Of a stretch of 22,338 nt of DNA, positions 1,621 to 21,997 are shown piece after piece. Origin of the DNA: Candidatus Tectimicrobiota bacterium (GTDB lineage Bacteria; JACPSX01); contig JACPSX010000058.1 of assembly GCA_016193065.1 (NCBI GenBank), forward strand, positions 1 through 22,338, written 5' to 3'. Each line of letters starts with the position of its first letter. Positions within the stretch are counted from its first letter, which is position 1. A model generated the notes under the pieces. It had not been told where the DNA came from. It made no database searches and saw only the letters and a program-made list of their open reading frames with translations. The translations under genes and the position numbers were made by a program.

Positions 1621-3019
1621 TCTGGGAACGGGGGAAAGTCGCGGCCGCATTCTGGTGGTGGATGATGAAGCCAACATCACCGATGCCATCAAACGAGCCC
1701 TGGAGAAAACAGGCTTCGTGGTGGATGCCAGCACGGATCCTTTGCTGGCTCTGGAGATGGTGCAGAGGGGGACTTACGACCTGGTCATCTGTGACGTCAA
1801 GATGCCTAAGATGGATGGCATTCAGCTTCTCAACAAGATCAAGGAGCACGACCCCAGCATCGGGGTCCTCATGATCACGGGATACGCTTCCCTGGAATCG
1901 GCCATCACCTGCATTAAGCTGGGCGCTCAGGATTATATTACCAAGCCCTTTAAACCGGATCACCTGCGGGTCCTGGTCGGAAAGGCCATGGACCACCGAC
2001 GGCTGGCCGACGAGAACCTCTTCCTGAAAGGGGAGATCCGGGGTTTCTATGGACGCGAGATTTTCATGGGCCAGAGCCGGGCCATGCGGGACATCTTTGA
2101 CCTGGCCTTGAAAGTGGCGTCCAACAATTCCAACGTGCTGATCCTGGGGGAAAGCGGCACGGGGAAGGAAGTGGTGGCCCGCTTCATCCATATGAACAGT
2201 TCTCGCGCCGCCCGCCCCTTTGTCACGGTGAACTGCGCGGCCATTCCCGAGAACCTCCTGGAGAGCGAGCTTTTCGGCCACCACAAGGGAGCCTTTACGG
2301 GAGCAGTCTATACGAAGCGGGGCAGTTTCGAGCTGGCCGACGGGGGCACGCTTTTCCTCGATGAGATTGCCGAGATGCGCCCTGAGATGCAGGCGAAGAT
2401 CCTGAGGGTCTTGGAAGACTCCAGGGTCCAAAAGGTGGGCTCGGAGGAGGCCGTTCAGGTCGACGTCCGCGTCATTGCGGCCACCAACAAGAACCTGGAC
2501 GAGGAGATGGCGGGAAACCGCTTCCGGGATGACCTCTACTACCGGTTAAACGTCGTTCAGATTGCGATCCCTCCTCTGCGCCAACACCTCCAGGACGTGG
2601 TCCCGCTGGCCCGCCACTTTCTGGCCCAGTACTGCAAGGAGCTCAAGAAAAGTGTGGGGGATTTCTCCGAAGATGCCCTTGAGTTCCTGGCCCGCTATCC
2701 CTGGCCCGGCAACATCCGTGAGCTCAAGAACGCCATCGAGCGCGCCGTAATCTTTGCAGAGCCGGGGGGGTTGATTCGCACCAAACATTTTCCTCAGCAT
2801 ATGGTCAGCGAGGCCCGGGATCCGACGAGGATCTCTGCCGGAAAGGATCTAAACTCTCTGCCGAGCCTGCGGGAGGCGGAGATTAGCTACATCCGGGAGG
2901 TCCTGGAGCTTTGCCATGGGAACCGCACCCGGGCCGCGGAAATCCTGGGAGTCTCTCCTGTCACCCTCTGGCGCAAGCTGGGCAAGGAGGAGGGTCAGCC
3001 TTCCACTCAAGACGATTGA
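1613..3019 (+). CDS. Sigma-54-dependent response regulator (NtrC family)
   Basis: This 468-residue protein has the classical three-domain layout. The receiver domain (about 12-125) carries the acidic pair DDE at 17-19, phospho-acceptor Asp61 and Lys111 in the KPF motif. The AAA+ domain (about 150-380) has Walker A GESGTGKE (179-186), the sigma-54-contacting GAFTGA loop (226-231) and the Walker B region GGTLFLDE. A Fis-type helix-turn-helix lies near residues 437-458. Phosphorylation should drive oligomerisation and ATP-dependent opening of sigma-54 promoters. No cognate kinase is adjacent, so its partner is elsewhere. A sigma-54 promoter with upstream tandem dyads lies about 1.1 kb downstream (4151) and is a reasonable target by proximity, though this is inferred. 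Confidence 0.93.
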   Translation: MVDLGTGESRGRILVVDDEANITDAIKRALEKTGFVVDASTDPLLALEMVQRGTYDLVICDVKMPKMDGIQLLNKIKEHDPSIGVLMITGYASLESAITCIKLGAQDYITKPFKPDHLRVLVGKAMDHRRLADENLFLKGEIRGFYGREIFMGQSRAMRDIFDLALKVASNNSNVLILGESGTGKEVVARFIHMNSSRAARPFVTVNCAAIPENLLESELFGHHKGAFTGAVYTKRGSFELADGGTLFLDEIAEMRPEMQAKILRVLEDSRVQKVGSEEAVQVDVRVIAATNKNLDEEMAGNRFRDDLYYRLNVVQIAIPPLRQHLQDVVPLARHFLAQYCKELKKSVGDFSEDALEFLARYPWPGNIRELKNAIERAVIFAEPGGLIRTKHFPQHMVSEARDPTRISAGKDLNSLPSLREAEISYIREVLELCHGNRTRAAEILGVSPVTLWRKLGKEEGQPSTQDD

Positions 3020-3045
3020 CTGCTTGTGAGCCGGGCAGGATCGGG

Positions 3046-3079
3046 GTTCCGGATAGGTTCCGGGAAGGGTCTTTTTTTT
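3046..3079 (+). terminator. Weak possible terminator after the response regulator
   Basis: An imperfect hairpin (CCGGA at 3049-3053 with TCCGG at 3059-3063) is followed after 8 bases by a run of eight T at 3072-3079. The stem is short and the gap to the T run is long, so this is only a weak candidate for ending transcription before the TerC remnant. Confidence 0.25.
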
Positions 3080-3132
3080 GCGGGGGCGGTGACTTTGGGC
3101 TTGCTCGGGTTCAGGTTGGGAGGGAGTCGAAG

Positions 3133-3901
3133 GTGGCCTGGTACTGGATCGGCTTTGTTGTTTTTATCCTCGTGATGCTGGCCCTTGACTTGGGTCTTTT
3201 TCATCGCCGGGCCCATATCGTTTCCCTGCGGGAGGCAAGCCTTTGGAGCGTCGTATGGGTGAGCCTGGCCTTTGGGTTCAATGGACTCATCGTCTGGACT
3301 CAGGGTTCCGTCAAGGGCCTGGAATTTCTCACCGGCTACCTCATCGAGCTTTCCTTGAGCGTGGACAATCTGTTTGTGTTTGTGATGATTTTTCTTTACT
3401 TTGCCGTTCCAGCCCAGTATCAGCACCGGGTCCTTCTCTGGGGGATCGTTGGCGCTTTGATCATGCGCGGAATCTTCATTGCTTTGGGGACACTGCTCCT
3501 GGCGCGGTTTCACTGGATCATCTACCTCTTCGGTGGCTTCCTGGTCCTGACGGGGATCAAGATGGCCGTTCAGCCCCATGGCCAACTGCATCCGGAGAAG
3601 AACCCCGTGCTTCGATTTTGCCGCAGAGTCTTTCCCGTAACTCCCGGCTACGAGGGGCAGCGCTTTCTAGTCCGCAGGGGGGGGCGCCTCTGGCTGACAT
3701 TACTTTCTCCTGGCAGGCATCGTGAATCGGTTTCGCTTCCTGAAGTTTGGGTTGGCGATCGTTCTGTGCTTCGTGGGGATAAAGATGCTCCTGTCGGAAA
3801 TCTACCCTATCCCCATAGGAGTTTCCCTGGCAATCGTGGCTGGAATCCTGTTCCTGTCGGTTCTTGCTTCCCTGGTTTTCCGTTCGAAACAGGAGCGCTA
3901 G
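3133..3901 (+). pseudogene. TerC-family membrane protein, broken by an internal deletion and frameshift
   Basis: TerC/Alx-family proteins are polytopic membrane proteins linked to metal export or tellurium resistance. The N-terminal part reads normally from GTG 3133 (VAWYWIGFVVFILVMLALDL), through SLSVDNLFVFV with its conserved acidic residue, to RLWLT ending at 3699. Reading then fails, and the C-terminal family sequence resumes one frame over at 3701 (YFLLAGIVNRFRF through to VFRSKQER, stop 3899-3901). Intact homologues have about 45-50 residues between LWxT and LYFLLAG, including the second acidic motif of the ExxDxxFAxDSIPA type. That segment is missing here. The remaining pieces (189 + 66 residues) plus the gap match the usual length of about 300. 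The same-frame continuation to 3993 looks non-native. A real deletion and an assembly error cannot be separated from this sequence. Confidence 0.8.
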
Positions 3902-3993
3902 ACCCCTTGCTGGAGACCTCCTGTTTCCTCCGATCCTATTGTTTTTCCCTTCCTTTCCGGAGAAATACCTCAGTCCATTCAAAATGCAACTAG

Positions 3994-6736: not shown

Positions 6737-7081
6737 ATGAAGCGGTTCCTGTATGCGGGTGTCCTGGTCGTAGCTGTCCTGGCGGTCGCTCTCATCTCCG
6801 GAAACAGTTTCGGACAGGTAAAAAAGGTTGGCGGTGGCGACATCAAGTACACCAATACCAAAGGATTGGGCCCCGTTACTTTCAGCCATGCCTTCCATGA
6901 CGGAAAAGGACTTAAGTGCACGGAATGCCATACGAAGATCTACAAGATGAAGAAGGGCGAGGCGAAGGTCGATATGGCGACCCTGAACAAGGGTGAGTCC
7001 GGCGGAGCCTGCCACAACGGCCAGAAGGTCTTCTCCTCGAAGGCTCCCAACGACTGCAGCCGCTGCCACATCAAAGGGTGA
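6737..7081 (+). CDS. Small c7/c3-type periplasmic cytochrome with one damaged haem site
   Basis: The 114-residue protein has a signal peptide (residues 1-26, ending SGNSFGQ). The mature domain is like the c(7)-type triheme repeats found in metal-reducing bacteria: VTFSHAFH supplies distal histidines, followed by CTECH (61-65), an ACHNG stretch (91-95) and CSRCH (107-111). In this family the middle motif is normally CxACHNG, but here the first cysteine is Gly89 (codon GGC at 7001-7003, one base from TGC). Two complete CXXCH sites therefore remain, and the third could bind haem through one cysteine only or not at all. Expected role: soluble electron carrier in the periplasm. The ATG at 6737 is chosen over 6668 because GGGAGGAAG precedes it and it places the signal peptide correctly. 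Confidence 0.82.
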   Translation: MKRFLYAGVLVVAVLAVALISGNSFGQVKKVGGGDIKYTNTKGLGPVTFSHAFHDGKGLKCTECHTKIYKMKKGEAKVDMATLNKGESGGACHNGQKVFSSKAPNDCSRCHIKG

Positions 7082-7336: not shown

Positions 7337-8293
7337 ATGGTGTCCAGAAAGACCCTGATGATCGGGGCAGTCATCGCGTTGGGGCTGGTCGTCCTCGGCC
7401 TCGGCGGGTTTGGATTTATGACGTACAACTACGTGGAGAACAACCCCGCCTTTTGCGCTTCCTGTCACATCATGCAGGATGCTTGGGTGAGATGGGCCCA
7501 GAGCCCTCACAAACAAATCACCTGCCACAGTTGCCATGTGCAGAGCAAGGTGGACAGCGCCCGCCTTCTCGTCAAGTGGGTGACGCTGCGCCCCACGGCG
7601 GTGGAAAGTCACGCGGTGGTGGAGGTGGAGCGCTGCACTCAGTGCCACGCGTCCAAGGACAAGCGCTGGCCGCAAATTGCGGAGACGGCGGGTCACAAGG
7701 TCCACTTTGCCCGCGCCGGGATCCAGTGTCTTGACTGTCACGGCCAGGGCATCCACCGTTTTAGTCCTCCGGCGGAAGTCTGCAAGAAGTGCCATGCGAA
7801 TGTAGTGGTCAAGGCCCGGGGGATGGCTACCCTGCACTGCACCACCTGCCATAATTTCCTGGCCCAAAAGGGAGAACTTGCGCACCCCACCCGGAAGGAC
7901 TGCCTCGATTGCCACAAGACAATGAAAGTCAAGTCCGAGGTGTTTGCCACGACTGCTCCTATGCTGTTTGAGTGCGGCACCTGCCACAAACCCCATTCCC
8001 AGCCGGTGCCCGTACGAAAAGATTGCCTGGCGTGTCATCCCGAGCCTCAACTGGTGGGCCTGCACCAAAAGATGGCCCATGCGGATTGCGTTTCCTGCCA
8101 TCGCCCTCACCTGTGGAAAGTCAGCGGCCGGAGCACCTGCGAGGCCTGTCATGTGGATCGCAAGAGCCATTTCGGCCCGACCCCCTGCTTCCAGTGTCAC
8201 CGCTTCGGCGGCGGTGCGCCTGGAGGCAAGAAGGCGGAGGGTGTGAACAGGGAGGAGCTATGGGGAGAAGCCCGGAGTTCCTCCTGGCGTTAA
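7337..8293 (+). CDS. Dodecahaem c-type cytochrome, NapC/NirT-like N-terminus
   Basis: This 318-residue protein has one N-terminal membrane anchor (about 8-30), followed by FCASCHIMQDAW and SPHKQITCHSCH, which match the start of NapC/NirT/NrfH membrane quinol dehydrogenases. Twelve CXXCH motifs are present, beginning at residues 40, 63, 100, 131, 149, 168, 189, 213, 230, 251, 268 and 284. The protein is much longer than tetrahaem NapC, and the rest is a string of closely spaced motifs suggesting an extended electron wire in the periplasm. A role in moving electrons from menaquinol to periplasmic acceptors is inferred. Its last 34 bases overlap the start of the binding-protein gene, implying coupled expression with a sensory system. 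The C-terminal tail after the last haem motif is low-complexity. Confidence 0.88.
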   Translation: MVSRKTLMIGAVIALGLVVLGLGGFGFMTYNYVENNPAFCASCHIMQDAWVRWAQSPHKQITCHSCHVQSKVDSARLLVKWVTLRPTAVESHAVVEVERCTQCHASKDKRWPQIAETAGHKVHFARAGIQCLDCHGQGIHRFSPPAEVCKKCHANVVVKARGMATLHCTTCHNFLAQKGELAHPTRKDCLDCHKTMKVKSEVFATTAPMLFECGTCHKPHSQPVPVRKDCLACHPEPQLVGLHQKMAHADCVSCHRPHLWKVSGRSTCEACHVDRKSHFGPTPCFQCHRFGGGAPGGKKAEGVNREELWGEARSSSWR

Positions 8294-9162
8294 TCTTCTG
8301 CACTCTTCTCCTGTGGGGCAGCGCCTGGGCTGCTCCTCTTCAGGCGGAGTGGCCGGAACACCGGATCCGGCTTGCTTTGGGATCCCAATCCCCCTTTCCG
8401 CAAGCGCTGCAGCACTACCAGCCTCTGGTCAATTACCTGGAGCGAAAGATCGGGATTCCCATGGATCTGGTGCAGGTCCCGGAGGCTTCCGACCAGTTGA
8501 GACGGTTGGACCAGGGATCCGTCGACCTGGCCCTCGTGGATGGGGCTGTTTATTGGAAGTACCGCTCCCGTCTGGATTTGCTGGGAATCCAGAGGATCCG
8601 CGGGTCCTTGCAGCGCAGGGCTCTGCTGGCTGTGCGAAGTACGGCTTCCATTAGGACTCCGGCCGACCTGGACGGCAAGCCGATGGCGAGCGCCGATGAC
8701 TGGGATACCCTGGGCACTCTCTGGATCCTCTCCGCTGCGGGGCCGGAGGTGCAACCGCGTTTCGTGCGCGCCTCCAGTTATGTGGCTGCCCTGCAGGATG
8801 TGATCCTGGGGAGAGCCGAGGGGGCCGCGGTGGAAGAGGATGTCTTCCGGCACTTTTTCTCCCGCTACCCCCGGTACCGGGGGAGTGTCCGGGTGATCGC
8901 GACCTCACCCTTCTTTTCCAACCTGGCGCTGGTCGTCAGGCGGACCTTGTCGGCTGCGGCGCGCAGGGAATTTCAGAGTGTCGTTCGCAGCATGGGGGAA
9001 ACTCTCGAGGGGGCTGCCGTTTTGGCCGCCATAGGGATCGGGGGGTTTGTCCCGGTTGACGCCGGCTTTTTTAAAGAGGAAGAACTGTTGTTGTCCCGTC
9101 TAGCCCGCTTGGGGGCCAAAGGGGATCTCCATGGGGTTCCTGCAGCGATTTTCGCAAAATAG
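8260..9162 (+). CDS. PhnD-like periplasmic substrate-binding protein
   Basis: This 300-residue protein has a signal peptide (MGRSPEFLLALIFCTLLLWG, cleavage near residue 25) and the PhnD/SsuA/transferrin-type binding fold. Seen are RLALGSQSPFPQALQHYQPL with LVNYLERKIGIPMDL, then LDQGSVDLALVDGAVYW, the IRTPADLDGKPMA hinge segment and VAALQDVILGRAEGAAV. Relatives bind phosphonates or other oxyanions for ABC import, but no permease or ATPase is adjacent. Instead the gene is followed by a kinase, with a 32-base overlap. That favours a sensory role in which the binding protein presents a ligand to the kinase's periplasmic domain. Start ATG 8260 is set by GGGAGGAGC just upstream and by the signal peptide. 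Confidence 0.85.
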   Translation: MGRSPEFLLALIFCTLLLWGSAWAAPLQAEWPEHRIRLALGSQSPFPQALQHYQPLVNYLERKIGIPMDLVQVPEASDQLRRLDQGSVDLALVDGAVYWKYRSRLDLLGIQRIRGSLQRRALLAVRSTASIRTPADLDGKPMASADDWDTLGTLWILSAAGPEVQPRFVRASSYVAALQDVILGRAEGAAVEEDVFRHFFSRYPRYRGSVRVIATSPFFSNLALVVRRTLSAAARREFQSVVRSMGETLEGAAVLAAIGIGGFVPVDAGFFKEEELLLSRLARLGAKGDLHGVPAAIFAK

Positions 9163-11050
9163 CCTCAAGTTTCAGGTCACGGCCACCATCACGGGGCTCA
9201 TCCTGTTCATCTCCTTTGGTCTTTTCTTCATGTACGTGGCCAATGAGTTTGCCCAGTTGCGACGATCAGCCCGGCAGGAGGCCGAACGTCTGGCAGGGAT
9301 CGTGGCCCAAGCCGCCCTCCCTCACCTGGTGCGGCGGGACTATGCCCTTCTGCAGGATCTGGTCCGGGGGTTCAGCAAGGATCCTGCCGTGCAGTCCATG
9401 TGGGTTGCCGATGAACGGGGATTGGTTTTGGCTCACTCGGAACCGGATTTCTTCGGAGAACCCCTGGGTCCGGTGGTGCAGGGGCCCCCGTTCAGCGAGA
9501 ACAGAGTTTTGATCCGGGAAGATCTGCGCAAGAACCTTCTGCACGTGGAATTTCCCATGGTCCTGGCCGGCAACCGGTGGGGGACGGTGGGGATGGAGTA
9601 CTCAACCGCTTCCTTGCAGGAGACGCTGGGCATCCTGGGAGGGGAAGCCCTCCTGGTGACGGGTCTGTTCGTCCTGGTCGGTTTCTGGCTTGGAGCCGTC
9701 TTTTCCAAAAGGATCACCGCACCGGTCTCTGAACTCACCCGAGCTGCAAGCGCTTTGGAGGCCGGAGACTTCAACATCGAAGTTCAGGTGGAGGCGGAAA
9801 ACGAAGTGGGGGTCCTGCAGCACCATTTCGCCCGCATGGCGCGGGCCCTGGCCGAGAGCCAGAGGGAGTTGCAGGAAAAGAACGAAGCCCTCAACACATT
9901 GAATCAGGAACTGGCGGGCCGGGTTCGGGAGGCCACAGCAGAGCTTTCGCGGACCATGGAGTATTTGAGCTTTATATTGAAGAGCGCCCGGGATGCCATT
10001 ATCACCACGGACCGGGCCGGGAGCGTGCAAACCCTGAACCGGGCCGCTGAAGAATTGTTGGATGTGGGGAGAGAGGATCCCCGGGGGAAGCCGGTGGCGG
10101 AGCTTTTGGGCAAGAGCAAGGAGGTTTCGGAAGCTTTAAGTCAGGTGGTCGACAAGGACCAGACCCGCGAGATCGAGACTCGCATCCGGGACCGCAGGGG
10201 GGAAGAGAGGCTACTGAACTCCACCATTTCCCCGCTGAAATCCGATGCCGGTGATCTCCTGGGCGCCGTGGTGATTGCCAGCGACTTGACCGAGAAGAAG
10301 CACTACCAGGAGGAACTGATGCGCTCCGAGAAGCTGGCCAGCGTAGGGGAACTGGCGGCTGGTGTGGCCCACGAAATCAACAACATCATCATGGTCATCC
10401 TGGGCTTCGCCGATCTGCTGCTGCGCCAGACGGGTCCCGATCACCCCTCGACCCAGGATCTGAAGATGATCGAGAAAGAAGCCAAGCGGGGGAGGGACAT
10501 TGTCCAGCGACTCCTCCGTTTTGCACGACCTCAACCCCTGAAACTGGCCTGGACCGATCTGGAATCGATCCTGGAGAACACCGTCTCCCTTCTGTCTCAC
10601 CAGATCCGCAAGAGCGGAATCCGGGTCGAGAAGGACTATGATCCACGGGTCTCGGCAATTGTTTGCGACCGGGGCCAGCTCGAGATGGTTTTTACCAATA
10701 TCGCCCTCAATGCTATCCAGGTTCTTGGCGACGAGGGGATTCTCAGGATCAAAACAGGGGCCAAGGGTGCCGACCGGGTCGAGGTGATGATCTCCGACAA
10801 CGGGCCGGGAATCCAGCCCGAGCACATGGGCAAGATTTTCGATCCGTTTTTTACCACCAAAGAGCCGGGCCAGGGAACGGGTCTGGGACTCTCCGTCGCC
10901 TACCGGATCGTCCATGAACACGGTGGGATCATCCGGGTGCGAAGCCGGCCCGGCCAGGGGACCGATTTTTTCATCGAGTTGCCCGTCGGTTCTGAACGAG
11001 AGGGAGCACAGGCGCTTCCCACCTCCGGGGATTTCGGGGAGAAGAGGTAG
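9131..11050 (+). CDS. Membrane sensor histidine kinase (HAMP-PAS-HisKA-HATPase)
   Basis: The 639 residues read as TM1 (about 15-37), a periplasmic sensor domain of about 130 residues, TM2 (169-191), HAMP (192-245), a coiled coil, a PAS domain (about 278-388, starting AILKSARD-like [14 protein letters not shown]), the HisKA dimerisation domain with phospho-accepting His414 in GVAHEINNI, and an HATPase with N box [16 protein letters not shown] and GTGLGLSVA. The H-box has INNII where INNPL is usual. The gene overlaps the binding-protein gene upstream by 32 bases and lies 9 bases before a sigma-54 response regulator, so binding protein, kinase and regulator form a three-component chain. The signal sensed is unknown. 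No CXXCH is present in this kinase. Confidence 0.93.
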
Positions 11051-11059
11051 GGCAGGGCT

Positions 11060-12427
11060 GTGGTGCGGGAAAAGATCCTGATCATCGATGACGAGGAGGG
11101 GATCCGCCAGCTCTTCGTGCGCCTTCTCCACGGCGCCAAGTATGAAGTCCACCCCTTCGAACGTGGGGCTCCGGCTTTGGAATCCATGCAGCGCGAGACC
11201 TATGATCTCGTGATCACGGATCTGCGCATGCCCGGCATGGATGGGATGGAGGTTCTGGAGCGGGTGCGCCAGGAGCGTCCGGAGTTGCCGGTGATCGTGT
11301 TGACCGGACACGGCACGGTGGAGAGCGCCGTGGAGGCGATGAAAAGGGGGGCCTATGACTATATCACCAAACCCGTGCAGCCCGAGGAGATCGAGCTGAC
11401 CATCGAAAAGGCCCTGCGGGAGAAGCGACTTTCCGAGGAGAACCGGATCCTCAAAGAACAGCTCACGGAGCGTTACAGCCTGGATGCTCTTCTCGGGAAA
11501 AGCCCCAAGATGCGCGAGCTGTTCCAGTTGATTCTCCAGGTAGCTCCCAGCGATGCCGCCGTCCTCATTCAAGGGGAAAGCGGCACCGGTAAAGAACTCG
11601 TGGCCCGGGCGATCCATACTCACAGTGCTCGCTCCAAGCGGATTCTCCTGTCCCTGAACTGTGCCGCCTTGCCCGAGACCCTGCTGGAAAGCGAGCTCTT
11701 CGGGCACGAGAAGGGGGCATTCACCGGGGCGCTGACCGCGAAGAAGGGGCTCCTGGAAGTAGCCGACGGCGGCACGCTGTACCTGGACGAGATCGGTGAT
11801 ATGCCCTATTCTCTTCAGGCCAAACTCTTGCGAGCTGTCGAGCAGGGAGAATTTCTGCGCCTTGGGGGGCAAAGCCCGATCCACGTTGATGTCCGCACCA
11901 TCTCTTCCACGAATCGCAATTTGAAAGAGATGGTGGAATCAGGCAAGTTCCGGGAGGATCTTTACTACCGGCTCAATATCATCATGATTCACGTCCCCCC
12001 TTTGCGCGACAGACAAGAAGATATTCCCCTGCTGAGCGAGCATTTTTGCCGGAAGTTTGCCGAGAAAATGGGGAAGCCCATCAAGGGATTTGCTCCCCCG
12101 GCCATGGAAGCTCTGCTGGCTTACGACTGGCCGGGGAACGTGCGCCAGCTTGAGAACATCATCGAGCGGGCCGTCATCATGACGGCAGGCGAAACCATCG
12201 AGAAGGAATCCCTGGCGACTGAGATTCTTGCGGCCCCTTCCACTTCCTCCGAAGGCTATCTCCATCTTCCTCTCAAAGAAGCCAAAGAAAAACTGGAACG
12301 GGACTATCTCCTCAGGGTGCTCAAGCTGCACCACGGCAATGTCTCTTTGGCAGCCCAGGAAGCGGGGATTCACAAAACTCACTTTTATCAAAAGTTGCGC
12401 CAGTACGGGATCCGCTTTGAAAGCTGA
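11060..12427 (+). CDS. Sigma-54-dependent response regulator (NtrC family), partner of the upstream kinase
   Basis: 455 residues: receiver domain (1-120) with DDEE at 10-13, phospho-acceptor Asp54 ([12 protein letters not shown]) and the KPV lysine near 104; AAA+ domain with Walker A GESGTGKE (172-179) and GAFTGA (219-224); a C-terminal Fis-type helix-turn-helix (about 424-450, [20 protein letters not shown]). The GTG at 11060 follows GGCAGGG; a GTG three bases later is also possible. Nine bases separate it from the kinase gene. It lies just upstream of a control region with GTAGGGGAA-type dyads and a sigma-54-like promoter, so the following cytochrome operon is the leading target. In Geobacter the related CbcBA system is likewise under a sigma-54 regulator (BccR). 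Confidence 0.93.
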
Positions 12428-13434: not shown

Positions 13435-13462
13435 AGGCGGCACGGAATCGGGGGGCAAAGTC

Positions 13463-14398
13463 ATGAGGTTTCCACGGGTGGCCGGATTCGCACTGGGAAT
13501 CGTGGTTGGTTCTCTCCTGGGGGTTGCGGGAGCCCCTGCCCAAGCGGCGGACAATGACACCTGCCTGGTCTGCCACCGCAGCCCCCTGGAATCCTCCAAA
13601 CCAGGGAAAACGGGCCCCTTTTATATCGATCCGGAAGCGCTTGCGCGCTCGGTGCACGGGGGCCTGACCTGCGACACGTGTCACCAGGGCTTCACGGCGG
13701 GGCCCCACGAAACTGGCGCGCTGCAGGGGGTTGACGAGAGTCTTCGAAAAGTGGCCGGCGAACTCCAGAAAAAGCGCGGCAAGGGAGGAGTTGCCCTGGC
13801 CAGTTGCGTGACTTGCCATTACGAAAGTTTTCAGGATTATTCCCAAAGTGTTCACGGCGTCGCTCTGTTCGACAAGGGTGTGAAAGACGCTCCCTATTGC
13901 CTGGATTGTCACGGTCCTCCGCACACCCTCATGCCCAAAGAGAGCCCCGCTTCCAGGGATTTCTACACCAACATCCCCACGACGTGCGCCTCTTGCCATG
14001 GCAATTCCGAGATCATCCTCAAGTACCGGCTAAACACGAATGTGGTGCCAACCTACCAGGAAAGCTTTCACGGCAAGAAACTGATCCTGGGCAGCTCGGA
14101 TGTGGCGGTGTGCAGTAGCTGCCACGGGGCCCATAAGGTCGTGGACCCCCAGAGCCCTGCCTTTACGGAAGGCCTGGCGATGCGTTGCGGCCAGTGCCAC
14201 GAAGGGGCCTCCCCCAAGTTCGCCACGGCTTTTGCCCACATCCCCGCTACGGAAACTTCCCAGAAGATCGTGCACTGGGCCGAGCGGTTTTTTGCCGTAC
14301 TGACCGGAGGGGTGATTTTAGGACTGGTCACTCACATCGGCCTCGACTTGGCCTCCCAAGTGAGAATCCGCCAACGCCGCAAAAAGGGGAAAAAATAA
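13463..14398 (+). CDS. Seven-haem c-type cytochrome, CbcA-like, membrane-anchored
   Basis: 311 residues with a signal peptide (1-29, cut after AQAA), seven CXXCH motifs at residues 34, 70, 115, 146, 175, 217 and 242, and a C-terminal transmembrane helix (about 276-297) followed by a basic cytoplasmic tail (RIRQRRKKGKK). Additional histidines in SVHG and SFHG contexts can act as distal ligands. A seven-haem cytochrome next to a di-haem cytochrome b matches the Geobacter CbcA/CbcB menaquinol:cytochrome c oxidoreductase, although gene order here is c then b. Expected role: accept electrons from the cytochrome b on the outer face of the inner membrane. A similar nine-haem paralogue lies at 19976-21139. 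ATG 13463 is chosen because it begins the signal peptide; its ribosome-binding site is modest (GGGGGG). Confidence 0.87.
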   Translation: MRFPRVAGFALGIVVGSLLGVAGAPAQAADNDTCLVCHRSPLESSKPGKTGPFYIDPEALARSVHGGLTCDTCHQGFTAGPHETGALQGVDESLRKVAGELQKKRGKGGVALASCVTCHYESFQDYSQSVHGVALFDKGVKDAPYCLDCHGPPHTLMPKESPASRDFYTNIPTTCASCHGNSEIILKYRLNTNVVPTYQESFHGKKLILGSSDVAVCSSCHGAHKVVDPQSPAFTEGLAMRCGQCHEGASPKFATAFAHIPATETSQKIVHWAERFFAVLTGGVILGLVTHIGLDLASQVRIRQRRKKGKK

Positions 14399-14470
14399 GC
14401 AGCGCGGTGGAGGAACGGGAGAAGGTCTTCCGCATCCGCCACAAGGTTTCCGATCAGGGGGGTGCAAAGC

Positions 14471-15250
14471 ATGGACGCCAACGATAAGGTCCTGCGCTGG
14501 AACATTCACTACCGGCTCCAGCACGTCCTCATGTTCACGAGCTTCATCATCCTGGTGTTGACCGGGATTCCCCTGAAATACGCCGGCCTGGGGGTCTCCC
14601 GGGTTTTCATGAACCTGTGGGGCGGCCCGGAGATGGCCTCCACCGTGCACCGGACTGCGGCCGTGGTCATGATCATCTCTTGCGCCTATCACCTGGTTTA
14701 TCTCGGCTGGAGAATGTGGAAAGGCATCTTCTCCCCGGATATGATCCCGAGCTTCAAGGATCTGCGAGACCTCTACGACAACATCCGCTTCTACCTGGGC
14801 CTTGCTCGCCGGCCCCCTCTGTTCGGACGCTTCACGTACTGGGAGAAGTTCGATTACTGGGCCGTTTTCTGGGGCATCTTCATCATGGTGGGCTCCGGGC
14901 TTGTGCTCTGGTTTCCCGTCGAAACGGTGCGCTTTTTCCCGGTCTGGGCCCTCGGGATCGCGAAGGTGGCCCACAGCGATGAGGCTCTGCTGGCGGCCCT
15001 GGCCATTTTCATCTGGCATTTCTACAACGTGCACCTGAGGCCGGAAATTTTCCCCATGAACTGGGTATGGATCACGGGAACCATCACCCGCAGAGAGCTG
15101 AAGGAGAAATACCCGCTGGAGTACGAGCGCCTGCGCCTCCAGGAGGCGTTGGGTGCCCAGCGTCCAACCGGTATCCCTCCTCAAGAGCCGGAGGCTGTCG
15201 CTTCCGCCAAAAGAGGCGGGACCGAATCGGGTTCCGAGCAGGGGATCTGA
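14471..15250 (+). CDS. Di-haem cytochrome b (CbcB-like quinol-oxidising subunit)
   Basis: The 259-residue protein has four transmembrane helices (about 16-35, 58-80, 127-149 and 171-190) with histidines placed for two b haems: His18, His60, His74, His168, His183 and His188. Recognisable blocks are IHYRLQHVLMFTSF, STVHRTAAVVMI and KVAHSDEALLAALAIFIWHF. This is the cytochrome b561/FdnI/HydC-type fold that oxidises menaquinol and hands electrons to a partner cytochrome c. The partner is the seven-haem protein 72 bases upstream. The close paralogue at 21158-21997 shares the AKVAHSxEGLLA...IWHxY block and the FPM motif after it. ATG 14471 is preferred over GTG 14462 because GGGGGGTG precedes it at good distance. 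The C-terminal 50 residues are polar and probably cytoplasmic. Confidence 0.87.
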   Translation: MDANDKVLRWNIHYRLQHVLMFTSFIILVLTGIPLKYAGLGVSRVFMNLWGGPEMASTVHRTAAVVMIISCAYHLVYLGWRMWKGIFSPDMIPSFKDLRDLYDNIRFYLGLARRPPLFGRFTYWEKFDYWAVFWGIFIMVGSGLVLWFPVETVRFFPVWALGIAKVAHSDEALLAALAIFIWHFYNVHLRPEIFPMNWVWITGTITRRELKEKYPLEYERLRLQEALGAQRPTGIPPQEPEAVASAKRGGTESGSEQGI

Positions 15251-15253
15251 GGG

Positions 15254-16228
15254 ATGATTTTGGATCTCTATGTGCAGATGGTGTTGCACTCGGCGGTGAG
15301 CGCTTTGGGGGTGGAGGCCTTACTCGTGCTGTGGAGCGTTCGGGAACCGGCTCAGCGCTGGCGCTACCGGCTGCTGGCCCTGTTGCTACCGGTGCTCACA
15401 GTTCCTGCCTTTCGTCTTCTGGATCCTTCCTGGGGCAGCCCGGCGTTCCGGGCTGGAGAGGCCCTCTTTGACAGCAGGCGCTGGCTCGAGTTGAGAGTGG
15501 GAGGCGTGACGGGCCGGGTGGCCGTCATGGCCGTGTTTGCGACCAGCACCCTTGGTTTTTTTCTGCAAGAGGTGAGACCGCTGATCCGGGAGCTCTGGCA
15601 GGAGAAATCGCCGCGCCGGGCGCCTGCAGAGTTTCCCGACCTGGCTTCCGCTCTGGCCTCTTGGCGGAACATCTCCCCGGGGGAGAGCCCGGCCATTGAA
15701 ATCATCGATGCCGAGGAACCCATGAGCAAATGTAAAGGGGGGAAGCATGCTGCGGTCGTCCTTTCCTCGGGACTTCTGAACCGGGTCGATAAGAAGGAAC
15801 TGCTCAGCATTCTGGCCCACGAAGGCGCCCACCTTCGCAAGAGGGATCACCAGTATGGCTGGGCCCTGTTGTTTCTTCGTATCCTGCACGCTGCCAACCC
15901 GATCGGGCTCCTGGTGTTCCGTAAGCTGGGCGAGGAAAATGAGAATTGGTGCGATGACCTCTCCGTGGCTGCTACCGGGGACCCACTTTCCCTGGCTTCC
16001 GCCCTGGTCCATGTCTACCGCGGAACCTTGACGAACGACCAGCATTCCCTGGAATGGTACCGGAGCGGCGGTAGAGCTCTGGGAGCCAGGGCACGGGAGG
16101 CGGTGATTGTGGCCCGGATCGAGAGGCTTATGAAACCCCGGCCCGCCGGCAGCAGCAGGCAATTGGAACCCTGGCGCATGGGCGTTGCCGGGGTATCCCT
16201 GACAACCCTCCTGTTTCGGGTGGTGTGA
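15254..16228 (+). CDS. M56-family (BlaR1-like) membrane zinc metalloprotease
   Basis: 324 residues with three N-terminal hydrophobic helices (about 5-28, 39-57 and 86-104), a cytoplasmic zone, and the gluzincin-like motif HEGAH (189-193) followed by LRKRDHQYGWALLFLRILHAANPIG and EENENWCDDLSV, which match the HExxH and ExxxCDD signature of peptidase family M56. BlaR1/MecR1 relatives cleave a cytoplasmic repressor after a periplasmic signal. Here there is no beta-lactam sensor domain and no BlaI-like repressor gene. The gene follows cytochrome b by 3 bases and overlaps the next gene, so it belongs to the respiratory operon. Its target is unknown; candidates are the adjacent membrane protein or a regulator elsewhere. 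Active-site residues appear intact. Confidence 0.82.
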   Translation: MILDLYVQMVLHSAVSALGVEALLVLWSVREPAQRWRYRLLALLLPVLTVPAFRLLDPSWGSPAFRAGEALFDSRRWLELRVGGVTGRVAVMAVFATSTLGFFLQEVRPLIRELWQEKSPRRAPAEFPDLASALASWRNISPGESPAIEIIDAEEPMSKCKGGKHAAVVLSSGLLNRVDKKELLSILAHEGAHLRKRDHQYGWALLFLRILHAANPIGLLVFRKLGEENENWCDDLSVAATGDPLSLASALVHVYRGTLTNDQHSLEWYRSGGRALGARAREAVIVARIERLMKPRPAGSSRQLEPWRMGVAGVSLTTLLFRVV

Positions 16229-16791
16229 GGATGGTCCCTGCGGTGGTTCGAGAGGTCGGCAGATCGGTGGTGGCGATAGCGGCCGTCCTGGGAGGAATTG
16301 CCGTTCTGTTGTCAGGGCTCAACCGCGTTCCCGTAGTCCTGCAGCCCGAGGTCTCCCACCGATTCAAAGATTTTTCCGGGGTGCGGGAGGCCGAGCGGGA
16401 ACTAAAGACAAAGATCTGGATCCCGGCCTATTTCCCGGACTATCTGAGCTGGCCTCCGGCCCTGGTCCGGGTGGAAAAAGGAGAACCCCCTGTCGTGGTC
16501 CTGGGCATCTTGCGCAACCCTCAGCATGACCTGTCCCTCCTCCTGCTGCAGTCTCTGGGCAAAGGAGATTGGCAGGCTCTGTCGGTTCCCGCCGTAACCA
16601 GCGTGGTGGAAACACGCCAGGTAGCGCTCAAAAAATCCAGGGCCATTTTGTCCCGGACAATGGATGGCAGCGGGCAGATTTGGACTCGACTGCAATGGGA
16701 GAGCGCGTCTCGACGCTTCCTCCTCATTGGTCAGTCCTCCACCGAGGAACTCCTGCGGATCGCTGGCAGCATGGGAGGGGCGGATCAGTGA
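16225..16791 (+). CDS. Membrane-anchored protein of unknown function next to the M56 protease
   Basis: 188 residues: one N-terminal hydrophobic segment (about 10-30) that could be a signal anchor, then a soluble domain of mixed strands and helices (KIWIPAYFPDYLSWPPALVR, PPVVVLGILRNPQHDLSLLL, FLLIGQSSTEELLRIA). No cysteine pairs or haem motifs are present. The IPAYFPDYL...W pattern resembles periplasmic domains of anti-sigma or outer-membrane-lipoprotein-sensing proteins, but this likeness is too weak for a name. The GTG start overlaps the M56 stop, and the stop overlaps the kinase start (GTGA), so it is translationally coupled to both. It could be the protease's partner or substrate, or a modulator of the kinase. 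An ATG at 16231 is an alternative start. Confidence 0.7.
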   Translation: MRMVPAVVREVGRSVVAIAAVLGGIAVLLSGLNRVPVVLQPEVSHRFKDFSGVREAERELKTKIWIPAYFPDYLSWPPALVRVEKGEPPVVVLGILRNPQHDLSLLLLQSLGKGDWQALSVPAVTSVVETRQVALKKSRAILSRTMDGSGQIWTRLQWESASRRFLLIGQSSTEELLRIAGSMGGADQ

Positions 16792-18695
16792 AGGGCGCGC
16801 GTCTGCGACAGCCTTGGAGCCTTAGAGGCCGGGTTCTCTTCCTGGTGAGTGTGGGGATGCTTGTGGTCTTCGCGCTGATCGGGGTGTCAAGCTACATGAG
16901 TATGAGGGAGAGTTCGAAACAAATCCTCCAAGAACGCCTGCGCCTCGCCCAAACGGCCGCGGCTCACCTGGATTTCATCTTGCAGGAGAACTTAAACCGT
17001 CTGGTGGACATCCCCTTTGCCCGCGGGTTTGACCTCGGAGATCGCAACTGGGGGCCCGAAAGGGAATCTCTGCGGGATGCTTACCTCCACTCGATCTTTA
17101 CGGGGGGCATTTACCTGCTGGGTTCGGACGGCCAAATTCTGATCCGGGAACCGCAAGGGGCGGGACCGGTACGGCGGGATTTCCTCTCTTTTGCCCCTGT
17201 CGCCAAGGCATTTCAGGAGGGCAGACTCTACCTGACGGATCTTCTGCCGGGAGCCCCCGAAGGACGCTATGTGATTTGGGCTCTGGTGCCGGTCCGGGGT
17301 CGGGCGGGAGAAGAGAGGGGGGCTCTGATCGGGGAGATTGATCCGGGAGCACCGCGGCTTCAGGAAGCCATTGCGACGGTGCAGTTGGGGAAGTCGGGGT
17401 ATATCGACGTCGTGGATAGCTCGGGTTTGGTCTTGGCCTCCACCCGGCTCGAGCGTCTGTTCTCGGCGGGAGACCACCGGGAAACTCTCAGCGGCCTGCT
17501 GCGCGCCCGCCAGCCGCAGGTCGGGGCCTGTCATGACTGCCACACGAGCACTCACTTGGGGGAAAGGGAAACCGAGATCATGGCTTTCTCCCCGCTGCGG
17601 GCCGCCTCCTGGGGGATCAACATCCGGCAGCCGGAGCGGGAATTGGGGACGTCTCCGTCCCTGTGGGGCTGGCGCGTTGCCGGCATGGGCACTGTCCTCA
17701 TGATCATGGCTCTGATCGTGGGGTGGGGGACCTCTCAAAGCATCCTGAAACCAACCGCAACCCTAACCCGGGCGGCCCGGCAGATCGCCAGCGGGGATCT
17801 GAATTCCCCGATTCCCAACTTGGGCAGTGATGAGATTGGAGAACTGGGGCACTGTTTTGAAGCCATGCGGCTTCGTCTGAAGGAGTCGATCGAAGAAGTC
17901 CGGGAGTGGAACCGCCAGCTCGAACGCCGGGTGGCGGAGAGGACACTGGAGTTGGAGGAGCGCAACCGGGAGCTTTCCCGGCTCCTGCGGGAAAACGCCG
18001 CCCTCTACGCCCAGGTGCGGGAGAAAGAAGAGTTGCGGGGAGAACTGCTGCACAAGGTCATTGTCGCCCAGGAGGAGGAGCGCAAACGGATTTCCAGAGA
18101 ACTTCACGATGAGACCAGCCAGTCCCTGACGGCTCTCATCCTCTCCCTGGAAGCGGCATTGGCTGCGCTGCGGGGGGGGGAGGCCCGGGAACGGGTCTCG
18201 GCGAGCAAGGATCTGGCTCTGAAATCTCTGGAAGGGGTACACCAGCTCATTGCCGGCCTGCGCCCCTCGGTTTTGGATGACCTGGGACTCCAGGCCGCTT
18301 TGCGCTGGATAGCGGAACAGACCCTAACCCCTGCACAGGTGTCTCTGCACTACGAGGTGGCCGGGACCGAGCGCCGTCTGCCGACTGAGGTAGAGACCGT
18401 GGTCTTCCGCGTCGTTCAGGAGGCCATCACCAACGTCGTTCGACACGCGAGGGCGGAGACTGTCATGGTCTCTCTGGAGTTTAACGAGGATGCGGTAGCC
18501 GTGGACATTGAGGACGATGGACGGGGATTCAATGTCCGGGAGGGCATGAAGCTGGGTGAAGGAGGCCGGGGTTGGGGACTCATGGGGATGCAGGAGCGCG
18601 TTGCCCTGTGCGGTGGCGAACTTGTGATTGATTCCGCCCCCGGCAGAGGAACGCGGGTCCGGCTCGCCATCCCTGTCCCGGCGGGGGTGTGCTGA
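16788..18695 (+). CDS. NarL-type sensor kinase with a haem-c motif in its periplasmic domain
   Basis: 635 residues: TM1 (about 14-35), a large periplasmic dCache-like sensor domain (36-293), TM2 (294-314), HAMP (315-369), a long coiled coil (365-425), HisKA_3 with phospho-accepting His440 (EERKRISRELHDETSQSL), and an HATPase (about 520-630; EAITNVVRHA, DDGRGF, GWGLMGMQER). The sensor domain contains CHDCH at 248-252, a complete CXXCH motif, shortly after the GKSGYIDVVDSSGLVLAS strand of the second Cache unit. Periplasmic sensor domains with covalent haem c are known from Geobacter (GSU0582, GSU0935). A redox- or gas-sensing role is inferred. GTG 16788 is chosen because it forms GTGA with the previous stop and follows GGGAGGGG. 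The partner regulator starts one base after its stop. Confidence 0.9.
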   Translation: MKGARLRQPWSLRGRVLFLVSVGMLVVFALIGVSSYMSMRESSKQILQERLRLAQTAAAHLDFILQENLNRLVDIPFARGFDLGDRNWGPERESLRDAYLHSIFTGGIYLLGSDGQILIREPQGAGPVRRDFLSFAPVAKAFQEGRLYLTDLLPGAPEGRYVIWALVPVRGRAGEERGALIGEIDPGAPRLQEAIATVQLGKSGYIDVVDSSGLVLASTRLERLFSAGDHRETLSGLLRARQPQVGACHDCHTSTHLGERETEIMAFSPLRAASWGINIRQPERELGTSPSLWGWRVAGMGTVLMIMALIVGWGTSQSILKPTATLTRAARQIASGDLNSPIPNLGSDEIGELGHCFEAMRLRLKESIEEVREWNRQLERRVAERTLELEERNRELSRLLRENAALYAQVREKEELRGELLHKVIVAQEEERKRISRELHDETSQSLTALILSLEAALAALRGGEARERVSASKDLALKSLEGVHQLIAGLRPSVLDDLGLQAALRWIAEQTLTPAQVSLHYEVAGTERRLPTEVETVVFRVVQEAITNVVRHARAETVMVSLEFNEDAVAVDIEDDGRGFNVREGMKLGEGGRGWGLMGMQERVALCGGELVIDSAPGRGTRVRLAIPVPAGVC

Positions 18696-18696
18696 A

Positions 18697-19350
18697 ATGG
18701 CAAAGATTCGGGTAATCATCGCCGATGATCACGCCCTGCTCCGAGAGGGGATCAAAGCTCTGCTGGGGGCTTTCACGGACATTGAGGTGGTTGGGGAAGC
18801 CTGCGACGGAAGAGAAGCCATCGAGAAGGTGAAGGCACTGAGCCCTCATGTGGTTTTGATGGATATTGCCATGCCGGGGCTGGGAGGCCTTGAGGCCACC
18901 CTGGAGATTCGGAAGATTGCCCCCGAGACACGCATCTTGATCCTGACCCAGTACGACAACAAAGAGTACGTTTATCGTTTTCTAAAGGCCGGAGCGGCCG
19001 GCTACGTTCTCAAGAAAGCGGCAGCCGCTGAACTGGTGGACGCGATCCGGGCCACCTACCGGGGAGAAGCTTTCCTGCACCCGGCCATCGCCCAGGAGGT
19101 GATCTCGGGGTTCCTGAACCACCGGGAACCGGGAGACGGGGACACCTACGAGAGCCTCACAGACCGTGAAAAACAGGTCTTTAAGCTGGTGGCGGAGGGG
19201 TACACAAACCGCGAGATTGCCGAGTCCTTGGGGATCAGCGTGAAGACAGCCATGGCCCACCGCACCAACGTGATGCAAAAGCTTGGGTTTCATAATCGCA
19301 CGGAACTGGTGAAATACGCGATCCAGAGGGGCGTGATCCGGGTGGAGTAA
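18697..19350 (+). CDS. NarL/FixJ-type response regulator, partner of the haem-motif kinase
   Basis: 217 residues: receiver domain with DDH at 10-12, phospho-acceptor Asp56 (VVLMDIAMPG) and the conserved lysine in VLKKAAAAELV, then a LuxR-type helix-turn-helix (about 150-210: LTDREKQVFKLVAEGYTNREIAESLGIS). It starts one base after the kinase stop, with GGGGGTG upstream of the ATG. It should act on sigma-70-type promoters, unlike the two NtrC-type regulators in the window. Likely targets are nearby respiratory genes, for example the module beginning at 19494, but no binding site can be assigned from the sequence. Confidence 0.93.
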   Translation: MAKIRVIIADDHALLREGIKALLGAFTDIEVVGEACDGREAIEKVKALSPHVVLMDIAMPGLGGLEATLEIRKIAPETRILILTQYDNKEYVYRFLKAGAAGYVLKKAAAAELVDAIRATYRGEAFLHPAIAQEVISGFLNHREPGDGDTYESLTDREKQVFKLVAEGYTNREIAESLGISVKTAMAHRTNVMQKLGFHNRTELVKYAIQRGVIRVE

Positions 19351-19493: not shown

Positions 19494-19958
19494 ATGATCC
19501 GCTACGAAGCAGGTGAGCTGGTGAAAAGGGGGTTCTACTTCAATCAATCCTCGGCCGAGTTTACCCGGGTAAGCACTCCCTGGGGAAATCTCCCCTGGGA
19601 CGCCAGCGGGGAATTTATCCGGGTTCCGGGGATCCTGGTAGTGGCTCTGGCCCCCGTGCTGGGCGGACTGTTCGTCATGTTCCTCCCCTTTATCGCCTTT
19701 GCCATGGTCCTTGGCCTTGCGGCGAAGGGATTTGGGAGGGCGGGCCAGTGGCTCAGCCACAAGGTGTTGGCCATGTTGATTCCGCAGTGGAGGCCCGGAG
19801 AAGCGTACCTGGCGCGCCTGGGGACCCGCCGCCAGAAAAAAGCGGAGAAGGGAAGCGGAGAAGGAAACGATCTGGGGACTCCAAAAGAGCATGAAGCGGA
19901 GCCCAGGATTGAGGATCTGGCCCGGGAAATCGAGCGCAAGCGCCAAGGGGGGCAGTAG
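19494..19958 (+). CDS. Membrane protein of unknown function heading the second cytochrome module
   Basis: 154 residues. A polar N-terminus (MIRYEAGELVKRGFYFNQSS, then STPWGNLPWDASGEFIRVPG) precedes a hydrophobic region (about 46-80) that can make one long or two short helices, followed by a highly charged tail with a predicted coil (RIEDLAREIERKRQ). The tail is probably cytoplasmic. No haem motif or catalytic residues are seen and no family is assigned. AAGGAG lies eight bases before the ATG. It is 17 bases upstream of the nine-haem cytochrome and so probably forms part of that complex or its assembly, in the same position that the duplicated membrane protein at 12712 holds in the first module. 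Confidence 0.72.
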   Translation: MIRYEAGELVKRGFYFNQSSAEFTRVSTPWGNLPWDASGEFIRVPGILVVALAPVLGGLFVMFLPFIAFAMVLGLAAKGFGRAGQWLSHKVLAMLIPQWRPGEAYLARLGTRRQKKAEKGSGEGNDLGTPKEHEAEPRIEDLAREIERKRQGGQ

Positions 19959-19975: not shown

Positions 19976-21139
19976 ATGGGAATTGCGGAGGCCCTGATTT
20001 CCCGGTTGGGGTCCTTGAGAAGGATGAAGAGATGGTTGTGGCAGAGGAGGCGGATCCTCTGCTTGGCGGCGGGGGGAGCGGCTATGGTCCTGCTGGGGTT
20101 GCCCCCCCTTCCAGTGGGACCTCCCCCGCCGTTCTTCCCTCAAGCTGTAGCGGCCTCAGGACAGTCCGACGTGGAGGCCTGTCTGGGGTGTCACGGCTCT
20201 GACGGCCTGACCCTGTCCTTTCCCAGCGGGGAAACCGTCTCTCTGCTGGTGAACCCGCAAAAGTTCGCGACCTCAGTACACGGCAGGATCCTCAATTGCA
20301 CCGATTGCCATACGGGCATCCAGGAGGTGCCGCACCCCCAGCCCAAGGTGAAAAGTCACCGGGAATATTCTCTGGCCCAGTATGAAAGCTGCAAGCGCTG
20401 CCATTTTGCGAATTACACGAAGACGCTGGATAGCGTCCATTTTGACCTGATGTCCAGAGGGGACGTGAGGGCTCCGGTCTGCATGGATTGCCATGGGGCC
20501 CACGACATCCGCAAGGCCGGAGAACCCCGGGCGAGAATCTCTCAGACCTGTGCCCGTTGCCACGGGGAGATCAACGAGAGCTACAGCCGCAGCGTGCACG
20601 GGAAAGCCATTCTGAACGGGGAGAATTCCGACGTGCCGGTCTGCACCGATTGCCACCAGAGCCACAGCATTGAAGACCCCCGCACGGCCTCCTTCCGGCT
20701 CCGTATTCCTGAGCTGTGCGCGACCTGCCACAGCAATAAAGCTCTTATGAAGAAGTACGGGATCTCGACCGCCGTTCTGGATACGTACCTGGAGGACTTT
20801 CATGGGATGACGATAGCCCTCTACCGGAAGGAAGGGGTCACCAACAGGGCGCTGCAAGCGGTCTGCACGGACTGTCACGGGATTCACGATATCCAGCCCA
20901 CGGCCGGGCCCGGCTCTCTGGTGATGAAGGCCAACCTGGTGAAGGTATGCCAGAGGTGCCACGGCAATGTTTCCGAGAATTTTCCGGCTGCCTGGCTCTC
21001 CCATTACGAACCCAGCCCCAAAAAATTCCCGCTGGTTTATTACGTCAAGCTGTTGTACCGGATCTTCATCCCCTTTGTCATCGGGGGACTGATCCTCCAC
21101 ATCGCCCTCCACGTCTGGAGGATGGCCACAAACCGCTAA
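19976..21139 (+). CDS. Nine-haem c-type cytochrome, membrane-anchored
   Basis: 387 residues: N-terminal basic segment with a hydrophobic signal/anchor (about 27-45), nine CXXCH motifs (residues 69, 108, 139, 169, 192, 223, 248, 297 and 325), and a C-terminal transmembrane helix (about 361-381). Recurrent SVHG and DFHG histidines fit distal haem ligands. The C-terminal half, from KYGIST with TYLEDFHG through to the last haem and TM helix, follows the same plan as the seven-haem protein at 13463 (KYRLNT, TYQESFHG), so the two are paralogues. The next gene encodes its cytochrome b partner. The start at 19976 has AGGAG nine bases upstream; an internal ATG at 20024 (Met17) would give a shorter leader. 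Confidence 0.87.
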   Translation: MGIAEALISRLGSLRRMKRWLWQRRRILCLAAGGAAMVLLGLPPLPVGPPPPFFPQAVAASGQSDVEACLGCHGSDGLTLSFPSGETVSLLVNPQKFATSVHGRILNCTDCHTGIQEVPHPQPKVKSHREYSLAQYESCKRCHFANYTKTLDSVHFDLMSRGDVRAPVCMDCHGAHDIRKAGEPRARISQTCARCHGEINESYSRSVHGKAILNGENSDVPVCTDCHQSHSIEDPRTASFRLRIPELCATCHSNKALMKKYGISTAVLDTYLEDFHGMTIALYRKEGVTNRALQAVCTDCHGIHDIQPTAGPGSLVMKANLVKVCQRCHGNVSENFPAAWLSHYEPSPKKFPLVYYVKLLYRIFIPFVIGGLILHIALHVWRMATNR

Positions 21140-21157
21140 GGGATCGGAGAGGGCTCC

Positions 21158-21997
21158 ATGGAGAAAGTGGAAACCATGCTGGCCGAAAAGGAACCCGGAA
21201 CGCCCCAAGCCCCGGAGTTTTATGTGCGCTTCAACGTGCGCCAGCGTCTTGAGCATTTTTTCGTTATGTTCCTGTTCCTGGTGCTGGCCGTGACCGGCCT
21301 CCCCCAGAAGTTTTACCAGGCTTCCTGGGCCCAGTGGATCATCCTTTTCCTGGGCGGAATCGATTGGGTTCGGATCATCCACAGAGTTTCGGGAATTCTT
21401 TTTGCCTTCCTGGGCGTGGTGCACCTGGGGATGATTCTGGTCGGTGTGCTTCTTGGCCGGATCAAACCCATTCTCATCCCAACCCTGAAGGACTTTCGTG
21501 ATGCCGTCCAGCAGCTCCGTTACCACGTGGGGTTGACGGACGAGCACCCGCGGTTTGAGCGCTACGATTACAAGCAGAAATTCGAGTACTGGGGCCTGGT
21601 CTTTGGCGGCATGGTGATGATCACCACGGGGTTTATCCTCTATCTTCCCAACCTGGCGACCCGGTACCTGACCGGGGAGCTGATTCCGGCCGCCAAGGTC
21701 GCCCACAGCAACGAGGGGTTGCTGGCCTTCCTGGTCGTGATCATCTGGCATATGTATGGAACCCACTTTAACCCCGATGTCTTCCCCATGGATACCAGCA
21801 TCTTCACGGGAAAGATCTCGCGCGAGCGCATGCTGCATGAGCATCCGCTGGAGCTTCTTCGAATTTCCGCCGGCAGCCCCGAAGAAATGGAGCCCGGGAG
21901 AGATGGCGCTCACGAGCAGAGGGCGACGGCAAGCCCCGCGGCGGAACGGCAATCGGCCAACGCTCCTGATCGTGCCAAAGAGATAACGCCGGGATAG
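21158..21997 (+). CDS. Di-haem cytochrome b, partner of the nine-haem cytochrome
   Basis: 279 residues, four transmembrane helices (about 32-50, 72-100, 143-163 and 184-204), with candidate b-haem ligands His33, His75, His89, His183, His198 and His203. It aligns along its length with the cytochrome b at 14471-15250: both contain AKVAHSxE followed by GLLA or ALLA, then IWHxY, FPM and a TG(K/T)I motif. Predicted role is menaquinol oxidation with electron transfer to the nine-haem cytochrome encoded 18 bases upstream. GGAGAGGG precedes the ATG. The C-terminal tail beyond residue 240 is alanine- and glutamate-rich and probably disordered. It differs from its paralogue in a longer N-terminal extension before the first helix. 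Confidence 0.87.
   Translation: MEKVETMLAEKEPGTPQAPEFYVRFNVRQRLEHFFVMFLFLVLAVTGLPQKFYQASWAQWIILFLGGIDWVRIIHRVSGILFAFLGVVHLGMILVGVLLGRIKPILIPTLKDFRDAVQQLRYHVGLTDEHPRFERYDYKQKFEYWGLVFGGMVMITTGFILYLPNLATRYLTGELIPAAKVAHSNEGLLAFLVVIIWHMYGTHFNPDVFPMDTSIFTGKISRERMLHEHPLELLRISAGSPEEMEPGRDGAHEQRATASPAAERQSANAPDRAKEITPG

Follow-up and report, generated by a model that had tools for sequence, protein, structure and literature searches.

A sensor kinase with a predicted haem-c-bearing double-Cache domain, encoded among multihaem cytochrome c-b genes in a Candidatus Tectimicrobiota bacterium

The window, i.e. the whole stretch of 22,338 nucleotides analysed here, belongs to a Candidatus Tectimicrobiota genome of 2.9 Mb (294 contigs, 86% complete). 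No other member of this phylum was present among the genomes sampled, so the lineage is either deep or poorly sampled. The genes that concern us lie on the plus strand in the order 7-haem cytochrome c, cytochrome b, M56 peptidase, p188, sensor kinase, response regulator, p154, 9-haem cytochrome c and cytochrome b (Table 1). An earlier note on this DNA had described the kinase as lying between two cytochrome modules, and this is the case, with one c-b pair upstream (13460-15250) and the other downstream (19976-21997). The genome also encodes cytochrome c maturation genes and many c-type cytochromes. No match was found in the plasmid records searched.

Table 1. Genes and predicted sites of the kinase locus, in window positions
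Feature	Position	Strand	Remarks
7-haem cytochrome c, membrane-anchored (cytC_A)	13460..14398	+	
Cytochrome b561/FdnI-type membrane protein (cytb_A)	14462..15250	+	
BlaR1-type membrane metallopeptidase (M56)	15254..16228	+	HEGAH at 189-193; conserved cassette member
p188, 188 aa	16225..16791	+	N-terminal TM and beta-rich domain; conserved cassette member; overlaps kinase start
Sensor histidine kinase, 635 aa	16788..18695	+	GTG start, overlapping the stop of the preceding gene (p188); TM1 ~16-34, periplasmic double Cache ~36-296, TM2 ~297-315, HAMP 316-366, HisKA_3 431-496, HATPase_c 536-631
Predicted periplasmic double-Cache sensor domain, residues 36-296	16893..17675	+	dCache_1 score, AF2 model, PDB dCache matches
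His230 codon, predicted distal haem ligand	17475..17477	+	His 14/14 versus Cys 22/22 in two groups
CHDCH, residues 248-252, predicted covalent haem-c site	17529..17543	+	Between strands 3 and 4, membrane-proximal Cache module
NarL/LuxR-type response regulator, 217 aa	18697..19350	+	Receiver and LuxR-type HTH
p154, 154-aa membrane protein	19494..19958	+	Recurrent beside cassette
9-haem cytochrome c, membrane-anchored (cytC_B)	19976..21139	+	
Cytochrome b561/FdnI-type membrane protein (cytb_B)	21158..21997	+	

Further upstream the window encodes a 12-haem NrfH-like membrane cytochrome (7337-8293) and a small c7-type cytochrome (6737-7081), and c7-like ORFs recur near the kinase cassette in genomes of family f162, which is probably the Anaeromyxobacteraceae (Myxococcota). 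A second sensory set, consisting of a phosphonate-binding-type periplasmic protein, an AtoS-like kinase (sCache_3_2 and PAS) and an NtrC-type regulator, occupies 8254-12427; similar kinase and NtrC genes lie near the cassette at loci L112 and L114. The ORF at 2911-3993 looks, by eye, like the beginning of a TerC-type membrane protein; the C-terminal part seems to follow in a different frame, a middle stretch being absent, and the gene is possibly broken.

The two hydrophobic segments of the kinase (residues ~16-34 and ~297-315), its positively charged N-terminus and the position of the HAMP domain (316-366) place residues ~36-296 outside the membrane. The CXXCH motif noticed earlier (CHDCH) therefore lies, as had been claimed, outside the membrane and not in the cytoplasm. 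The phospho-acceptor box of the HisKA_3 domain reads ELHDE (residues 438-442). There are five cysteines in the whole protein, and the only two in the periplasmic part are both within CHDCH. The number of CXXCH motifs expected by chance in a protein of the same length and composition is about 0.0007; this value, together with the motif-free profile search described below, rules out a chance origin.

The earlier assignment of the sensor region to the Cache domains is confirmed, and the domain can be described more closely. The window kinase scores 41.5-44.4 bits against dCache_1 (PF02743), just below the Pfam cut-off of 45, and the homologues L063 (48.1 bits) and L066 (46.7 bits) score above it. 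An AF2 model of the sensor domain with nine homologues (pLDDT 82, pTM 0.82) predicts a double-Cache fold with two modules, and the fold matches listed in the PDB are double-Cache domains, including 5avf (Z 20.7, rmsd 3.5 over 233 residues) and 3c8c (Z 20.1, rmsd 3.0 over 224 residues). Searching the PDB sequences with a profile of the family likewise returned dCache proteins; a weak match of the motif region to the decahaem protein MtrC (E=1.4) in the same search was not significant and was set aside. In model numbering, the motif (213-217) is positioned after the third strand (209-212) and before the fourth (228-234) of the membrane-proximal module, in a low-confidence loop (pLDDT <50 at residues 250-259). 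Neither the window sensor nor any of five homologues matched the sCache_heme profile PF11845 even with a limit of E<=5, and we reject membership in that family, as there is no profile match and there are two Cache modules instead of one. The single-Cache haem structures 3B42, 3B47 and 5B82 are absent among the fold matches listed, which is still compatible with similarity of one module.

A search by similarity alone led first to L010 (27% identity), in which CKGCH occupies the position of the motif, and further homologues were collected from a broad genome sample with profiles built from two and then four sequences. To avoid circularity we also searched 386 genomes with a profile of residues 12-222 only, which contains neither CXXCH nor H230. 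Four matches had E<=6e-66 and CXXCH is present in all four; of the weaker matches, the best at 1e-15, the 26 whose DNA was read are ordinary double-Cache proteins, and the motif occurs in none of them. Judged from these sequences, CXXCH is specific to the family and is absent from its generic dCache relatives. In the wider family, which spans several phyla, the motif is kept by 35 of 36 sequences: outside f162 by 14 of 14 (all 13 distinct homologues plus the window kinase) and inside f162 by 21 of 22, although part of the named homologues were caught with a peptide pattern containing CXXCH, so that its presence in them is partly due to selection; H230 was in no pattern. This largely answers the objection, foreseen in the earlier note, that homologues might lack the motif.

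The relatives without CXXCH are L052/L105, which is inside f162 and has no CXXC, and the distant L059/L104, which has CRSCG. A frameshift does not explain these cases, as the motif is found in no other frame and the reading frame stays open, with substitutions at the site. According to a tree computed without the H230/CXXCH region, the motif was lost twice. Both L104 and L105 keep the nonahaem c-b genes as well as the residue-230 ligand type (His in L104, Cys in L105), and they can serve as natural haem-free comparison kinases from the same cassette.

Another conspicuous position is residue 230. The sensor alignment has 255 columns, and in 14 diverse members only eight of these do not vary, namely G115, D210, G213, H230, C248, C251, H252 and A266. 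Column 230 is the sole one that is fixed differently in the two groups, the f162 sequences having Cys throughout (Table 1). Histidine and cysteine are both haem ligands. The pattern makes H230 the likely distal haem ligand of the window kinase, and an invariant His or Cys at this position suggests a six-coordinate haem. However, the change from His to Cys maps to one event on the tree built without that region, and the column is therefore suggestive and no proof by repeated covariation.

The genes around the kinase are conserved as well. For 20 loci that encode a CXXCH-bearing kinase and have enough flanking sequence the neighbourhood could be compared, and in 17 of them, from several phyla, a nonahaem c plus b pair is encoded within ~6 kb, usually directly upstream. 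The exceptions are L070 and L111, which have no c-b pair within this distance, and L068, where there is only a fused homologue, farther off. The common order elsewhere is 9-haem c, cytochrome b, M56, p188, kinase, regulator, and it is seen in Dadabacteria (L063), in f162 (L029, L105, L106-L108 and L112-L114) and also at L104. A shorter form, c-b-kinase-regulator, is found in Nitrospinota (L065) and Acidobacteria (L067, L069), the contig ends after c-b-kinase in Methylomirabilota (L064) and in Acidobacteria (L066), and genome G036 (L013) has all cassette parts in a different order. A regulator 43-68% identical to that of the window adjoins the kinase in most homologous loci. None of the cassette partners is present at a control locus with a generic dCache-type kinase (L115).

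More than 20 homologous loci encode the M56 peptidase, p188 or both. For the beta-rich domain of p188, the best match among known folds is to RseB, in its C-terminal domain (Z 10.1, rmsd 2.6 over 93 residues); a Foldseek search with p188 gave no match under E 0.001, and we regard the resemblance as a lead only. RseB shields an anti-sigma factor against proteolysis. With a peptidase and p188 encoded before the kinase, a proteolytic signalling branch is possible. The p154 protein has no Pfam match; it recurs beside the cassette in several phyla, with two copies at L107 and L112.

Taken together, the motif, its location, its conservation and the maturation genes make a covalent haem c outside the membrane near certain. 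We propose that the proximal Cache module carries one such haem, attached through C248 and C251, with H252 as the proximal and H230 as the distal ligand. The haem would be oxidised and reduced by electron exchange with periplasmic cytochromes of the same cluster, whose multihaem c-cytochrome b pair presumably serves electron transfer between quinone pool and periplasm. A change in redox state would alter how the haem is ligated or how the proximal module packs. From there the signal would travel via TM2 and HAMP to the HisKA_3/HATPase core and finally to the regulator of the NarL type, which might then adjust the expression of the electron-transfer cluster. There is a precedent for the central step in Geobacter, where GSU0582 (-156 mV) and GSU0935 (-251 mV) differ in spin state and ligation between their oxidised and reduced forms (PMC8396549).

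With moderate confidence, we thus read the kinase and its regulator as a two-component haem-c redox sensor of the multihaem c-b electron-transfer module. Redox sensing is favoured by the second ligand-type residue fixed at 230 and by the fixed electron-transfer neighbours. The earlier note had proposed that a covalent haem lets the kinase read electron flow directly and signal through a NarL-type regulator. The haem, the NarL-type output and the link to cytochromes are strongly supported by the comparison, the last of them across several phyla. It is by inference that the kinase would read electron flow directly, that redox would be its signal, that the cytochromes would be its electron partners and that the cluster would be its regulon; electron-flow sensing as such is likely. 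A bolder version, which we put forward tentatively and consider doubtful as a whole, is a dedicated family of electron-flow sensors that would represent a second capture of c-type haem by Cache sensors (double Cache, with bis-His or His/Cys ligation), would be directly reduced by the co-encoded nonahaem cytochrome c and would be coupled to the M56 peptidase and the RseB-C-like membrane-tethered protein as a further branch of output or control.

The main rival explanation accepts the haem but supposes that the kinase detects a gas, most likely NO, bound at the distal site. It is unlikely in our opinion, but it has a close parallel: a HAMP-bearing, signalling sCache_heme protein of P. azotoformans, a single-Cache relative by type, binds NO with slow release and has no axial Cys (PMC12889525), and NO is also bound by GSU0582 and GSU0935 (PMC8396549). 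On the other hand, a strong distal ligand that is conserved is more in keeping with a redox haem than with a site left open for gas. The six-coordinate class, including the P. putida sCache_heme domain with its Cys/His ligation, was described as redox-like (PMC12889525), and Tll0287 is given His/Cys ligation there and in the title of reference 76 in PMC8396549. Even so, NO could still displace such a ligand. The conserved neighbours of the kinase, moreover, are electron-transfer genes.

The sensor could also respond to a small molecule bound by the distal Cache module, with the haem merely as a structural or tuning element, which would agree with a fold shared with the small-ligand dCache sensors PctA, Mlp37 and KinD. 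We think this improbable, since H230, C248, C251 and H252 make up four of the eight columns invariant in the 14 diverse members, while the distal module contributes G115 only and has no conserved ligand-binding signature among them. The persistence of two cassette kinases (L104, L105) that lost CXXCH and keep their cytochromes speaks for this explanation and also weighs on the direct reading of electron flow: a kinase can evidently persist without the haem, so the haem may be an addition to another input. A kinase with no haem at all, in which the CXXC acts as a thiol-disulphide switch or a metal site, is what one could suppose from the CRSCG of L059/L104, i.e. a CXXC without His. This last alternative seems very improbable, as every other CXXC-bearing member has the His of CXXCH, position 230 is fixed for another residue of ligand type, and the genome has maturation genes and many c-type cytochromes.

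Little is settled about the way in which respiring bacteria gauge the electron load on their periplasmic cytochromes. A kinase with a haem of its own, whose position next to a multihaem c-b module is conserved across several phyla, among them a large family resembling myxobacteria, offers a direct test object, and the natural His/Cys swap at 230 leads to predictions on redox potential and signalling that are open to point mutation.

It is instructive to compare the window kinase with known systems. The closest is the sCache_heme group (PF11845, DUF3365/Tll0287-like; Tll0287, GSU0582, GSU0935), in which an extracytoplasmic Cache domain with one CXXCH is fused to kinases among other outputs (PMC12889525, PMC8396549). 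A CXXCH in a Cache sensor is thus less unusual than the earlier note supposed. In a 2026 preprint sCache_heme is presented as the first Cache domain to carry a covalent cofactor (PMC12889525), and in the literature searched we found no description of a double-Cache haem kinase; with the present family, the haem-bearing Cache domains would include double as well as single ones. The slot between strands 3 and 4 is common to sCache_heme, a proven haem-c domain (PMC12889525), and, with a low-confidence loop in the AF2 model, to the proximal module of the window sensor. Either common ancestry of one module or a second, separate capture of the motif may lie behind this. The differences are that sCache_heme is a single Cache domain, whereas the window family has two modules, no PF11845 match and a fixed nonahaem c-b neighbourhood, and that its distal ligand is predicted between strand 2 and the next helix of the same module, while that of GSU0935 is Met60 in the N-terminal part.

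The dCache_1 sensors PctA, Mlp37 and KinD (PF02743) are like the window sensor in sequence and fold; they bind small molecules, and generic dCache relatives, unlike the window family, have no CXXCH (0 of 26). By description, the window kinase also resembles other signalling proteins with a periplasmic haem c for which redox roles have been proposed, namely GSU0303, GSU2816 and others in Geobacter and DcrA in Desulfovibrio (PMC8396549); DcrA and GSU0582/0935 are chemotaxis proteins, unlike the window kinase (PMC8396549). The electrode-sensing network EsnABCD of Geobacter was considered as a parallel and rejected, as EsnA is without a periplasmic domain (PMC5585712). In terms of output, the pair resembles NarX/NarL-type systems, having a HAMP-HisKA_3-HATPase kinase and a LuxR-type regulator. 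The NarX and NarQ models, however, have their best stretch, which starts at residue 430, in the kinase core and do not match the sensor domain, reaching 111 of the 553 bits needed for NarQ and 85 of 578 for NarX.
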